Made by a program: the position numbers and the translations under genes
Shown here: positions 16,716-21,445 of the stretch, piece after piece
Position numbering within the stretch: position 1 is the stretch's first letter
Layout of the letters: each line of letters opens with the position of its first letter
Assembly (NCBI RefSeq): GCF_003385845.1
Contig: NZ_QRDJ01000006.1
Location: forward strand, 1,238,707-1,302,706
Source: Kushneria indalinina DSM 14324
GTDB taxonomy: Bacteria; Pseudomonadota; Gammaproteobacteria; Pseudomonadales; Halomonadaceae
Length of the DNA stretch: 64,000 bases
Reading direction: 5' to 3'
The notes under the pieces: generated by a model
Database searches by the model: none
What the model was told of the DNA's origin: nothing
What the model saw: the letters and a program-made list of their open reading frames with translations, nothing else

Positions 16716-19463
16716 CTAATTGCTGAGACTGCCATGACAGTGCTTGTACTTTTTGCCTGAGCCGCACGGGCAGGGATCGTTACGCCCCACCTTCGGTTCA
16801 TCACGTCGTACGGTTGGATTCTGCACGGCCTCGGCAGCAGCCACGGCCTCTTCGCTCACCTCGGGCGCCGGCACATCTTCATGAGCGACATCGGTGCGCG
16901 TCATCTCGCTGGCCTGCTGCTCACGCTCCAGGTTTTCCCGACGCTCGCGTTCGAGCGTTTCGGGGTCCGCCTGCTGGCGCACCTGAACGTGACTGAGAAT
17001 GCGCACCACATCGGATTTAATGTTGTGCAAAAGCGTCTGAAACAGCTCGAAGGATTCGCGCTTGTATTCCTGCTTGGGATTTTTCTGCGCGTAGCCGCGA
17101 AGGTGAATGCCGCGACGCAGATGGTCCATCGACTGCAGATGTTCCTTCCAGCGGGTATCGAGCACCTGAAGCATGACCTGCTTTTCAAAGCGGCGCATGG
17201 TCTCATCACCCACGGCTGCTTCTTTCGCTACCCACGCCTGGCGAAGCTGCTCGTGCAGCCGTTCGCGCAGCATCTCTTCGTGGAAGCCTTCATCATCGCG
17301 CGCCCAGGCGGCGACCGGCGCCTCCAGATTGAACTCCTGGCGCAGGTGTTCTTCAAGCCCGACCAGATCCCACTGTTCGGCCAGACTTTGCGGTGGCACA
17401 TAGCTTGAGATGGCGTGATCCAGCATCTCGACGCGCAGGCCCTGAACGTTGTCGGAGACATTATCGGACGCCAGGATCTCGTCACGCTGTTCATAGACGA
17501 CGCGACGCTGATCGTTGGCCACGTCATCGTATTCCAGCAGCTGCTTGCGCATGTCGAAGTTGCGCCCTTCAACCTTGCGCTGGGCACGTTCCACTGCGTT
17601 GCTGACCATCTTGTGCTCGATGGCCTCGCCCTTTTCAAGACCCAGAACACCCATCATTTTCTGCACCCGTTCGGAGCCGAACAGACGCATCAGGTTATCT
17701 TCCAGCGACAGGAAAAAGCGGGTGGAACCCGGGTCGCCCTGACGGCCGGAACGCCCGCGCAACTGGTTATCGATACGGCGCGATTCATGGCGCTCGGTAC
17801 CAATCACGTGCAGACCGCCCGCCTCGATCACGGCATCATGGCGCTTTTTCCACTCGGCCTTGATGGCCTCAATGGCGGCCTCGCTCGGGTTATCGAGCGC
17901 AGCCACTTCGGACTCCCAGTTACCGCCCAGCATGATGTCGGTACCGCGACCGGCCATGTTGGTGGCGATGGTGACCGATGCCGGCCGGCCGGCCTGAGCG
18001 ATGATTTCCGCTTCACGATCGTGCTGCTTGGCATTGAGGACATTGTGGGCCAGCTGCTGCTTGCGCATCATCTCCGAGAGTACCTCGGAGCTTTCGATCG
18101 AGGCCGTGCCGACCAGGATCGGACGCCCCTCGGCCTGTTTCTCCTTGATGTCTTCAATGATGGCCTCGAACTTCTCCTGGGTCGTCATGAAGACCAGGTC
18201 GTTGAGGTCCTTGCGCGCGCGTGGCTTGTTGGTCGGAATGACCAGCACATCGAGATCATAGATCTCACGGAATTCGAAGGCCTCGGTATCCGCCGTGCCG
18301 GTCATGCCCGAGAGCTTGTCATAGAGACGGAAGTAATTCTGGAAGGTGGTGGACGCCAGCGTCTGGCTCTCCTTTTGAACTTCCACGTTCTCCTTGGCCT
18401 CGACCGCCTGGTGCAGGCCTTCGGACCAGCGACGCCCGTGCATGGTACGCCCGGTGTGCTCATCAACGATGATGACCTCACCCTTGGCCACCACATAGTC
18501 CACGTCGCGGTGGAAAAGATGCTTGGCCCTTAGCGCGGCCGCCACATGATGCAAAAGCCCAAGGTTATGAGCGGCATACAGGGAGTCTTCATCGGGGAGC
18601 AGATTGGCCTGGCGAAGAATGTTTTCGATCTCGTTGTGGCCGCGTTCGGTCAGCTCGATCTGCTTTTGTTTCTCATCGATGACGAAGTCGCCGGTCTCCG
18701 GATCCTCGGGATCCTCGCTGGGTACCAGCGGCGCGACCAGCTGATGGATGGTGCGATAGATATCGACATTTTCATCCACCGGGCCCGAAATGATCAGCGG
18801 CGTGCGCGCCTCGTCGATCAGAATCGAGTCCACTTCGTCGATGATGGCGTAGTTGAGCTTGCGCTGGACCTTTTCAGCCTGTGAAAAGGCCATGTTGTCG
18901 CGCAGATAGTCAAAGCCGTATTCGTTGTTGGTGCCGTAGGTAATATCGCAGGCATAGGCATTACGCTTGTCACGCGGCTGCTGACCGGCATAGATGACAC
19001 CCACGGACAGGCCCAGAAATTCATACAGCGGGCGCATCCAGTCAGCGTCACGACGCGCCAGGTAGTCATTGACCGTGACCACGTGCACGCCCAGCCCCGG
19101 CAACGCATTGAGATAAACGGCAAGCGTGGCTACCAGCGTCTTGCCCTCGCCGGTTTTCATCTCGGCAATGCGGCCTTCATTCAGCGCCATGCCACCGATC
19201 ATCTGGACATCAAACTGGCGCATGCCCATGACGCGCTGGGTCGCCTCACGCACGGTCGCAAAGGCCTCGGGCAACAGCTTGTCGAGCGTCTCACCATTGG
19301 CAAGACGCTCACGAAGTTTACTCGTCTGCTGTTGCAGTGCCTGGTCATCAAGGGCACTCAGGGACTCTTCCAGTGCATTGACCTTTGTGACGGCCTTGCG
19401 TATGCGTCTGACTTCACGGTCGTTCTTGCTGCCGACCATCTTGCGTAACAGCGTATTCAGCAT
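16716..19463 (-). CDS. secA: Preprotein translocase ATPase SecA
   Basis: Motor of the Sec general secretion pathway; it pushes unfolded preproteins through SecYEG. The 915-residue protein has Walker A MKTGEGKT near residue 105 and the DEAD-type [12 protein letters not shown]. It also has the second nucleotide-binding fold around NMAGRGTDI and the C-terminal zinc motif [14 protein letters not shown], which binds SecB and lipids. AGGA lies 7 nt before the ATG. It follows a small exported-protein ORF in the position of secM, and a hairpin sits just ahead of its ribosome-binding site. Confidence 0.98.
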
Positions 19464-19477
19464 CTCTTTATCCTGTG

Positions 19478-19517
19478 TCGTCGTGTCATGTCATTTACAA
19501 GGGCAATGACACGTCGA
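19478..19517 (-). promoter_or_regulatory. Candidate regulatory hairpin ahead of secA
   Basis: Twelve-base arms at 19506-19517 and 19478-19489, complementary except for one A:A mismatch, with a 16-nt loop holding the stop codon of the upstream ORF. The 3' arm ends 3 nt before the secA AGGA (19471-19474). The 5' arm lies immediately after the RRGPP codons. A ribosome paused there would be expected to melt it and expose the secA start, as in E. coli secM-secA. Confidence 0.55.
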
Positions 19518-19844
19518 AGGCGGGCCGCGGCGCGACAGCACATCATGGCCTGTCGGCATGCCAAGCCAGGGTCGCACAGGCAACACCGTGCGCACGACAC
19601 GAAGCAGAGCCACCGGCAGCCACCAGAAGCGTAATACCAGTCGCCTGAGGCGATAGCGACGACGGGACTCGGCACGAATATGCTCTGGCGAATGAAAGCA
19701 GATCCGGATCAGTTGGGCAGCCGTGCCATCAAGGCGAGCATCAGCCATGCCTATTGGCAAAAGACAGCCAATCAGGAGGCCGGCCAGCCACCATCGGGTC
19801 CTGAAGCCCCGAGGCAGACGGAATGTGCGAGCGGGATGGGTCAT
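19491..19844 (-). CDS. Small exported protein in the secM position (candidate SecM-like arrest peptide)
   Basis: Unrecognised 117-residue protein. Residues 1-36 form a good Sec signal peptide: basic n-region with four Arg, hydrophobic core WWLAGLLIGCLLPIGM, and ADA before the cleavage site. The mature part is very basic and Arg-rich (ESRRRYRLRRL). It ends with SRRGPPSTCHCPCK: an Arg-x-Gly-Pro core like the end of SecM, then a Cys-rich tail. It lies directly upstream of secA on the same strand (27-bp gap), exactly where E. coli has secM. The E. coli arrest residues Phe, Trp-Ile and Gly-Ile are not conserved at the right spacing, so SecM function is inference from position, signal peptide, RxGP and hairpin. 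Confidence 0.6.
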   Translation of the reverse strand: MTHPARTFRLPRGFRTRWWLAGLLIGCLLPIGMADARLDGTAAQLIRICFHSPEHIRAESRRRYRLRRLVLRFWWLPVALLRVVRTVLPVRPWLGMPTGHDVLSRRGPPSTCHCPCK

Positions 19845-19908
19845 GCTGTCAATCTGAGGATCAGCCGTGATAAATTGGCGCCATCCTTAATGATCGCGCG
19901 GCAGGGCC

Positions 19909-20373
19909 ATGAGTATAAAGGGTAAAGGAGTACGCGCCCAGCCCGTGGGGCAATTGTTACGCACCCGCGGCTCTCTGGCACCGCTGATTCATACGGCAGG
20001 TGTTCTCCTTGAGGCACAGGAACACCTTCTCAAGACGCTGCCCGATGAGCTCAGTGATCATGTTCGCGTCGGTGGCTATCACGATGGCAATCTGACGCTG
20101 ATGACCGATCGCGCTGTCTGGCTGACGTGGCTGCGCTTTGAACGCCAGCGCCTGTTGACTCTGCTGCGACAGCTTCCCGCCTTTCACGATCTTTCGGGCC
20201 TGACCTTCAAGGTACGCCCCATCAAACCTGTCTATACCCCGCATCCACGGACTCGCGAGCTTCCAGAAACGGCAGCCTCCCAGCTTCGTGAATGCGCTCG
20301 CGATACAACAAGCCCTCGTCTTAGAAAATCGCTTGAGCGGCTGGCCTCTCATGCGGGTCAGGACAGCGAATAA
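19909..20373 (+). CDS. dciA: DUF721 protein, DciA-type helicase loader
   Basis: DciA is the replicative helicase (DnaB) operator in most bacteria that lack DnaC/DnaI-type loaders. The 154-residue protein has the DUF721/KH-like core (about residues 10-105): a helix around LIHTAGVLLEAQEHLLKTLP, then strands with GNLTLMTDRAVWLTWLRFERQRLL and FKVRP. The tail is charged. It is transcribed divergently from the secM-like ORF and converges on lpxC. In Pseudomonas a DUF721 gene also lies between lpxC and secA. The presence of this gene suggests DciA-type rather than DnaC-type helicase loading. Confidence 0.85.
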   Translation: MSIKGKGVRAQPVGQLLRTRGSLAPLIHTAGVLLEAQEHLLKTLPDELSDHVRVGGYHDGNLTLMTDRAVWLTWLRFERQRLLTLLRQLPAFHDLSGLTFKVRPIKPVYTPHPRTRELPETAASQLRECARDTTSPRLRKSLERLASHAGQDSE

Positions 20374-20390
20374 CCACGGTTACTGCTGAT

Positions 20391-20422
20391 AAAAAAAGGG
20401 CACCGATCAATGATCGGTGCCC
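20391..20422 (-). terminator. Rho-independent terminator of lpxC
   Basis: Eleven-base perfect stem gggcaccgatc / gatcggtgccc with a 3-nt loop. On minus it is followed by TTTTTTTATC. On plus (after dciA) there is no T-tract. Confidence 0.9.
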
Positions 20423-20462
20423 TCGCAGACTGTTGGATATCCTGCTGGCGTAACCCGTTGGA

Positions 20463-21374
20463 TTACATGGCCATGGCCGGTTCGGAGTAGGAAATCGGTG
20501 AGGTTTCACGATCCTCGAAGGTCACGATTTCAAAGGCTTCCTGATGCTGAAGCAGAGCCCGGACCAGCTGATTGTTGAGCCCGTGACCGGACTTGTACCC
20601 TCGGAACTCGCCAATCAGGCTATAGCCCAGCTGGTAAAGATCGCCGATGGCATCAAGTACCTTGTGGCGCACAAATTCATCTTCGTAGCGAAGACCATCT
20701 TCATTGAGGATACGGTACTCGTCGACAACGATGGCATTGTCCAGACTTCCCCCCAACGCCAGGTTCTGGGAGCGAAGGAATTCGATATCACGCATGAAGC
20801 CAAAGGTACGTGCGCGACTGACTTCCTTCACAAACGAGGTCGTCGAGAAATCAACGCTTGTCGTCTGCTTCTGGCTGGCAAAGACAGGATGATCGAAGTC
20901 AATGGCAAAGCTGACCTTGAAACCATCGTGCGGCAGGAAGGTAGCGTACTTGTCGCCATCCTTGACCGTCAGCTCCTGCTTGATGCGGATAAACTTCTTG
21001 GCCGCCTCCTGTTCGGCAATACCTGCCGACTGAATCAGAAAGACGAACGGGCCGGCGCTACCATCCATGATGGGCACTTCGGGTTCACTGAGATCGACAA
21101 AGGCATTGTCGATGCCCAGGCCCGCAAAGGCCGACATCAGATGTTCAACGGTGGACACACGCACATCGCCCACGGCAACGGCGGTACACATGGTCGTAAA
21201 ATGGACGTTTTCCGGGTGTGCCGGGATGCGAACGACCGGGTCCAGGTCGGTACGGACAAACACGATTCCGGTATTGGCCGGCGCTGGGCGCAGTGTCAGG
21301 TAAACCTTTTTACCTGAATGCAGGCCAACGCCTGTCGCACGAATGGTGTTCTGTAATGTTCTTTGACGGATCAT
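20463..21374 (-). CDS. lpxC: UDP-3-O-acyl-N-acetylglucosamine deacetylase
   Basis: Zinc hydrolase making the committed step of lipid A synthesis. The 303-residue protein begins [21 protein letters not shown] like E. coli LpxC (305 residues), so the upstream in-frame codons from 21404 are left out. Zinc ligands are visible: His in STVEHLMSA, and His and Asp in [14 protein letters not shown]. The catalytic His is in YKSGHGLNN. It follows ftsZ at the end of the dcw cluster, but a terminator and a separate TATAAT suggest independent transcription. Confidence 0.97.
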
Positions 21375-21445
21375 AGTCTGAGCTACCAGGCAGGAAACAT
21401 TCAAACAGTTGTTTATATGGTAACAGTTCCCTTGGATTTCGACAA

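Follow-up and report, generated by a model that had tools for sequence, protein, structure and literature searches.

A probable Sec-monitoring arrest peptide encoded upstream of secA in Kushneria and its relatives in Halomonadaceae

Directly upstream of secA, Kushneria indalinina DSM 14324 carries a small open reading frame (ORF) with a signal sequence and an Arg-Gly-Pro-Pro tetrapeptide near its C-terminus. Does this ORF encode a peptide that arrests the ribosome to monitor protein export and thereby control secA, and, if so, is it a form of Escherichia coli SecM or a monitor of separate descent? The locus was examined in a window, that is, the whole 64,000-nucleotide stretch of contig NZ_QRDJ01000006.1 that was analysed, and positions below refer to it. 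The gene, its position, conservation, motif, spacing, and predicted mRNA structure are established here, and the ORF very likely encodes a RAPP-like (RQH) Sec-monitoring ribosome-arrest peptide controlling secA.

The ORF, its neighborhood, and its arrest motif

The initial annotation placed a 117-codon ORF on the secA strand, 27 bp before secA, and the coordinates confirm this (Table 1): the ORF begins with ATG, and 27 bp separate its stop codon from the secA ATG. The order on the minus strand is lpxC, the ORF, secA, and an argJ-like gene, with dciA divergent between lpxC and the ORF. By eye and hydropathy, the N-terminus has Arg residues followed by WWLAGLLIGCLLPIG and a small-x-small site (ADA), and the body downstream of the signal is Arg-rich, as anticipated from the first inspection, which had described a signal peptide and a basic mature part. 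The C-terminal SRRGPP described at the same time is present as residues 104–109, close to the C-terminus rather than at it, with eight residues remaining.

Table 1. Features of the secA upstream region (window positions).
Feature	Position	Strand	Basis
Arrest-peptide ORF, 117 aa (uA_RQH-type secretion monitor)	19491..19844	-	ORF translation, relatives, profile matches
Signal h-region codons, residues 18-33 (WWLAGLLIGCLLPIGM)	19746..19793	-	Conservation in 106 relatives
Conserved mid-block codons, residues 47-62 (RICFHSPEHIRAESRR)	19659..19706	-	Conservation in 106 relatives
Arrest motif codons D-V-L-S-R-R-G-P-P, residues 101-109	19518..19544	-	Conservation; stall position by analogy with PMC10987492
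Putative P site, Pro108	19521-19523	-	Analogy with PMC10987492
Putative A site, Pro109	19518-19520	-	Analogy with PMC10987492
Predicted mRNA hairpin	19472..19520	-	Fold vs shuffles; consensus of Kushneria genomes
secA Shine-Dalgarno core AGGA	19471..19474	-	Sequence
secA	16716..19463	-	Pfam SecA domains
dciA, divergent neighbor	19909..20373	+	Pfam PF05258 DciA
Terminator-like hairpin 3' of lpxC	20396..20424	-	Consensus match only
lpxC	20463-21404	-	

No Pfam or NCBIfam family matched the ORF up to E 1, and the single match among solved structures (E 0.93) is not meaningful. Neither an Rfam element (18900–20500, up to E 1) nor a sigma-70 promoter (19300–20500) was found around it. The terminator-like hairpin 3' of lpxC makes it probable that the ORF and secA are transcribed together from a separate promoter. 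In the interval 19845–19908, the ORF start lacks a clear Shine-Dalgarno (SD) sequence (no GGAG) in Kushneria loci L001–L008, and of the 13 other-genus loci compared with them, 8 have GGAG ahead of the start; translation of the Kushneria ORF itself may thus be weak.

Relatives of the ORF were found in 23 of 38 related genomes; in all 23, secA follows the ORF immediately and dciA flanks it on the opposite side. A profile of 18 sequences, namely the window ORF and 17 of its relatives (profile A1), matched 186 of 201 sampled family genomes, and the places inspected are among the matches listed; at one of these (G045, E 8.4e-4), no such ORF stands before secA, and an M23 peptidase is found there instead. 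In an order-wide sample, the profile matched 28 of 390 genomes, 18 of them in Halomonadaceae and 10 weakly (E 0.001–0.008) outside the family, none of these 10 with secA in the locus, and in a class-wide sample it matched 3 of 369, all in Halomonadaceae. Relatives outside Halomonadaceae were dropped on these grounds.

The profile was also cut before residue 100, so that it no longer contained the motif, and run on secA-upstream frames. Adjacency to secA is built into this comparison, and most of its loci had been obtained with the motif-containing profile, with 14 obtained through SecA from 30 genomes. It returned 130 loci, 106 of them distinct, in which the last RAPP-like motif is RGPP in 102 cases and RAPP in 4, with no distinct relative lacking both; these 106 are related sequences, so that counts among them are not independent. 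A second set, sharing species with the first, came from named genomes scanned with the signal pattern WLA[GS][LI]L[VIF][GS]CL and confirmed by tblastn; here, the best 80 of 170 relatives all have RGPP and secA downstream, and the nearest named ones among them are those of Kushneria phyllosphaerae (94% identity), an uncultured Kushneria (93%), and K. pakistanensis (88%). The search for the ORF and its motif upstream of secA in relatives, proposed at the outset, thus yielded both. In the window, neither RGPP nor RAPP occurs in 55 largely non-overlapping ORFs of at least 120 codons (19239 residues), a limit below which the 117-codon ORF itself falls and a count that describes the window rather than the genome. 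The ORF is a real, selected gene, and its motif is not due to chance.

Within the motif, the Arg and both Pro residues are without exception in the 106 relatives. Upstream of it, Asp is found at −5 in 98, Val at −4 in 87, Leu at −3 in 85, Ser or Thr at −2 in 92, and Arg at −1 in 82, with Gln, Pro, and Cys among the other residues at −1; no conservation was seen among the residues immediately after it. Amino-acid identity is 0.98 over RGPP vs 0.20 over the spacer at residues 66–97, and the expectation that the C-terminal motif would be more conserved than the middle was therefore borne out. The third-base difference at fourfold sites of RGPP is 0.67, and because the motif codons vary synonymously while the amino acids are kept, the sequence comparison identifies the peptide, rather than the nucleotides of the motif, as the unit of selection.

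Some loci depart from the common pattern. In L023, L081, L082, and L084, all of genus g7, RAPP replaces RGPP and the preceding D-V-L is absent, a natural switch of motif. In L085, unlike in the other 105 relatives, the ORF continues for 44 residues past RGPP and shares 4 nt with the start of secA. As for codon usage, the putative A-site Pro codon is CCT in 44 of 106 relatives, and among the remaining 1072 Pro codons of the open frames 206 are CCT; at the P-site Pro, CCG is favored (54/106). Such preferences could stem from base pairing of the RNA with the secA site or from the choice of tRNA.

Conserved signal core, mid-block, and spacing

Four residues of the signal core—L24, C27, L28, and P30—are identical in 106/106 relatives, and W18 and W19 nearly so, with codons varying synonymously. 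Signal sequences are normally expected to be much less conserved, and measured against that general expectation the core of this signal is far more conserved. A second block, with the consensus I-C-x-x-A-P-x-x-I-R-A-x-S-R-R, shows an identity of 0.51 and a fourfold third-base difference of 0.58. In the 69 of 106 loci with the IRAxSR pattern, the end of that pattern lies 43–50 residues before the P-site Pro. The ribosome exit tunnel spans 30–40 residues, so the IRAxSR part would sit just outside it.

The distance from Cys27 to the P-site Pro is 77–84 residues in all 106 relatives (sd 1.9), which would place the signal outside the ribosome at arrest, and it is held to this range while the C-tail runs from 2 to 44 residues and the N-terminal part, by chosen start, from 20 to 42. 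Since wide variation of the spacer has been described for most secA and secDF arrest peptides by Fujiwara et al. (2024; PMC10987492), the narrow range is notable, though common descent explains part of it.

These features bear on whether export is sensed at all. A leader that stalls ribosomes and raises secA translation constitutively, by coupling or by SD unmasking, with its signal serving only to dispose of the peptide, would produce the same evidence for stalling and the same mRNA evidence, and RGPP is described as generally the most robust of the RAPP-like arrests (PMC12992588), which speaks for such a leader. However, a signal that keeps both its residues and its spacing from the stall site would be predicted where export acts on the stall, and would not where the signal is dispensable, and a constitutive leader is accordingly considered unlikely.

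The invariant Cys27 (codon at 19764–19766) lies in a lipobox-like L-V-G-C, yet a signal peptidase I-like site follows it. Were the LVGC a lipobox cut by signal peptidase II, the ORF would monitor lipoprotein export rather than general secretion, and the residues from −3 to 0 do fit, being Leu, Val/Ile/Phe/Leu, Gly/Ser (one Thr), and Cys in 106/106. But Arg is usually found at −10 (82/106), leaving only nine residues before the Cys; the hydrophobic LLP comes after Cys27; and a small-x-small site at 36/37 is followed by Asp or Glu (50 Asp and 29 Glu of 106), so that specialization for lipoproteins appears very unlikely. The reading as a monitor of general Sec function is retained in what follows.

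Relation to known arrest peptides and probable origin in Halomonadaceae

RQH uORFs upstream of secA and secDF have been described by Fujiwara et al. (2024; PMC10987492), those of secA in a subset of GTDB Pseudomonadales. RQH members are grouped there by motif and order, overall similarity lacking; in their arrested state, the P site holds the third residue of the motif; and the tested uA_RQH_Pseudomonadales member (R109GPP) arrests E. coli and Bacillus subtilis ribosomes in vitro with a fraction of >0.9. Of 23 RAPP-like sequences taken from proteins of E. coli and B. subtilis, most did not give efficient arrest, and a RAPP-like motif alone is therefore insufficient (PMC10987492). Averaged over ten major bacterial groups, RGPP is also reported to be the rarest of all tetrapeptides (PMC12992588).

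The ORF shows the features of this group: it is a small uORF of secA on the same strand with no annotated function, has an N-terminal secretion signal by sequence and hydropathy, keeps a C-terminal RAPP-like motif among its homologues (106/106), and has a spacer of more than 30 residues between signal and motif end (77–84 residues from Cys27 to the P-site Pro). It likewise belongs to GTDB Pseudomonadales, carries RGPP near its C-terminus, and is not a homologue of SecM, ApcA, ApdA, or ApdP, and by chosen start Arg falls at position 109 in 8 of 106 relatives, as in the tested member. Unlike the grouping by motif and order, the present set is one family of homologues that share three conserved blocks. 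In GTDB, Halomonadaceae belong to Pseudomonadales, and the published group is therefore very probably this family; the order grouping used here presumably also contains SecA starts known from Pseudomonas. On the published description, with which the comparison was made, the ORF very probably belongs to uA_RQH_Pseudomonadales. Its designation as new in the initial annotation consequently does not hold at the level of kind, secA uORFs of the RQH type, one of which carries R109GPP and was shown to arrest, being already described in PMC10987492. By analogy with these RGPP/RAPP relatives, the ORF would stall the ribosome, and at the corresponding site; the claim that it is an arrest peptide in the SecM position monitoring Sec function is strongly supported by its conservation and, by analogy, by the published RGPP work.

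Among other known systems, ApdP and ApdA (RAPP; PMC10951233 and PMC10987492) share the RAPP-like motif, with four of the present relatives carrying RAPP itself, and also the expected state of peptidyl-R-x-P-tRNA in the P site and Pro-tRNA in the A site. ApdA and ApdP are secDF uORFs, unlike the ORF studied here, which lies upstream of secA in the window, in the 23/23 genomes, and in the best 80 of 170 relatives. uDF_RQH_Enterobacterales has RGPP but belongs to another lineage and has secDF rather than secA as its target (PMC10987492). In the searched passages of PMC7897499, Halomonas, Oceanospirillales, RGPP, and Pseudomonas did not appear. The literature matches listed contain no arrest-peptide-related report with Halomonas, no paper with both Halomonadaceae and an arrest peptide, and no other report of the group.

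With E. coli SecM (PF06558), the ORF has in common an export signal and an Arg-containing arrest motif ending in Pro, as well as the lpxC–secA interval directly upstream of secA, where E. coli secM also lies. In E. coli SecM, RAGP is preceded by F..W-I..G-I at fixed positions. These positions are not kept in the 106 relatives, which have RGPP or RAPP and no conserved aromatic at −8 or −13, as had been remarked from the single sequence. Because RGPP replaces RAGP, the P site should, by analogy, hold Pro and not Gly as in SecM. In none of 29 related genomes did PF06558 exceed its cut-off, and an E. coli control was positive; weak matches below the cut-off occurred in 8 of the 29, none at the ORF. 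Membership of the ORF in the SecM family was rejected on this basis.

The neighborhood of secA and a SecA tree bear on the origin of the ORF. Thirty family genomes were obtained by SecA, 15 without a profile match and 15 chosen others. In 14 of these, secA is accompanied by the ORF and by no M23 peptidase; in the remaining 16, an M23 peptidase lies upstream of secA and the ORF is missing. At L092–L094 and L096–L108, the M23 peptidase preceding secA has an N-terminal hydrophobic segment, and the arrest ORF is absent. No M23 match was found in the stretch covered of the 106 arrest loci, a stretch that in 48 of them (L211–L258) comprises only about 150 bases before the match. Among the 38 relatives, a full-length M23 relative is encoded in 0 of 23 genomes with the arrest ORF and 13 of 15 others, the 23 yielding at E 1e-20 partial matches to the C-terminal part of the M23 protein only, or none. 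Of 97 genomes sampled from other families of the order, 68 have an M23 match beside secA and 29 do not, the latter including 2 with the locus on a cut contig. No signal-bearing secA uORF ending in a RAPP-like motif was found among the 97, which also bears on the identity of the published group; two loose pattern matches there, HGGG and RAGG, are not RAPP-like motifs. In a SecA tree of 59 rows, which leaves aside L108 (cut contig), the 19 rows that carry the arrest ORF cluster as a single clade (support 100/100). The simplest reading of this distribution and of the single clade is that the ORF arose once in Halomonadaceae, on the branch where M23 was apparently lost from the place adjacent to secA.

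A true SecM, inherited from an ancestor common to Enterobacterales and since diverged, would account for the shared lpxC–secA interval, but the PF06558 result, the lack of such a uORF in the 97 sampled other-family genomes, the single SecA clade, and the absence of the E. coli arrest positions all oppose it, and it is very unlikely. Of the two alternatives named initially, diverged or independent, the second is thus supported, and the ORF is regarded as an arrest peptide of apparently separate origin. An ordinary small exported protein with an incidental RGPP, to which the signal sequence and Cys residues would be suited, is scarcely credible given a motif kept in 106/106 beside an unconserved spacer, the lack of any Pfam or NCBIfam family up to E 1, and placement directly before secA in 23/23 genomes and in 80/80 of the best 80 of 170 loci.

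Predicted mRNA structure and a model for secA control

For uDF_RQH_Enterobacterales, the SD of the sec gene that follows is partly hidden in a stem-loop, and the substitution P127A lowers reporter activity 5.6-fold (PMC10987492). In the window, the putative P-site codon lies 60 nt from the secA start, as in six close relatives, and a hairpin is predicted that pairs CCU of Pro109 with AGG of the secA SD, UCG with CGA, and CGUGUCAU with AUGACACG. Its folding energy is −14.3 kcal/mol (z −2.38), with 3 of 200 shuffles as stable. The hairpin recurs in 8 of 10 Kushneria genomes, L009 and L010 being omitted from the consensus because the stretch differs there; 96.4% of cells are paired, and two pairs are changed on both sides, both in L008. 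As controls, values this high are attained by 15 of 500 shuffles, and pairing in slid controls does not exceed 49.1%.

A ribosome stalled on RGPP would, according to this fold, cover the 5′ arm of the hairpin. With the RNA removed as far as the leading edge of the stalled ribosome, predicted SD accessibility rose by >0.2 in 25 of 106 loci and fell by >0.2 in 2, with rises in 5–12 of 106 across 12 shuffled control sets. The effect is strong in 6 of the 8 loci of genus g32 examined, and the predicted value for the window is hardly altered (0.33 to 0.38). Consensus folds of chosen locus subsets within genera, with few covarying pairs, pair GAUGUCCUGAA with UUCAGGAUAUC in genus g32 and GAGGUCC with GGAUCUC in genus g2.

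Synonymous resampling gave a mean percentile of 0.382 for the motif window vs 0.448–0.584 in five control windows; of the 106 loci, 13 fell below 0.05 and 44 below 0.2, and 12 lay above 0.8. The result was negative for the window and for 8 of the 9 other Kushneria loci (percentiles 0.60–0.75), L008 being the sole Kushneria locus with a low percentile (0.04). In several genera, though not in the window, the resampling suggests that pairing of the motif codons with the secA site has been selected. Complementarity of the arrest codons to the secA site as a universal rule is unsupported, nine of ten Kushneria loci lying at 0.60–0.75. There are partial signs, from folding, that the motif codons may help to mask the secA ribosome-binding site, and the mRNA data taken together lend moderate support, at the level of prediction, to the known SecM-like logic of SD unmasking.

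A working model can be outlined for an arrest peptide of this kind. At the stall, the signal sequence of the nascent chain would already be outside the tunnel, and if SecA/SecYEG engaged and pulled the chain, the stall would be released quickly. Under slow export, the stall would persist, with the ribosome sitting on the hairpin just before secA, and the secA SD would then be freed and more SecA made. Release by export and the induction of secA in K. indalinina are what we infer from the features above. More tentatively, and with a chance that we would put well short of even, the arrest motif may be double-coded, its codons being antisense to the secA ribosome-binding site, and the peptide may be a three-part device. 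In such an arrangement, the stalled ribosome, just by standing on its stall codons, would free the secA site; the nearly constant spacing between the invariant signal core and the stall site would put the mid-block just outside the tunnel; and the IRAxSR mid-block would be a further element that SecA, the translocon, or the ribosome surface reads at release.

The kind of switch is already known, having been described and tested in 2024 (PMC10987492). What the present analysis adds is the constancy of the motif across the family, the likely single origin beside loss of M23, the conservation of signal core, mid-block, and spacing, and a candidate second role of the arrest codons as a mask of the secA site. 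The conserved core, mid-block, and spacing provide concrete residues for probing how export pulls the ribosome free. Halomonadaceae include strains used in biotechnology, for which arrest-based control of secA is therefore of practical relevance. Overall, these results indicate that a secretion monitor in the SecM position arose in Halomonadaceae apart from E. coli SecM, and that R-G/A-P-P has been kept in 106/106 relatives since.
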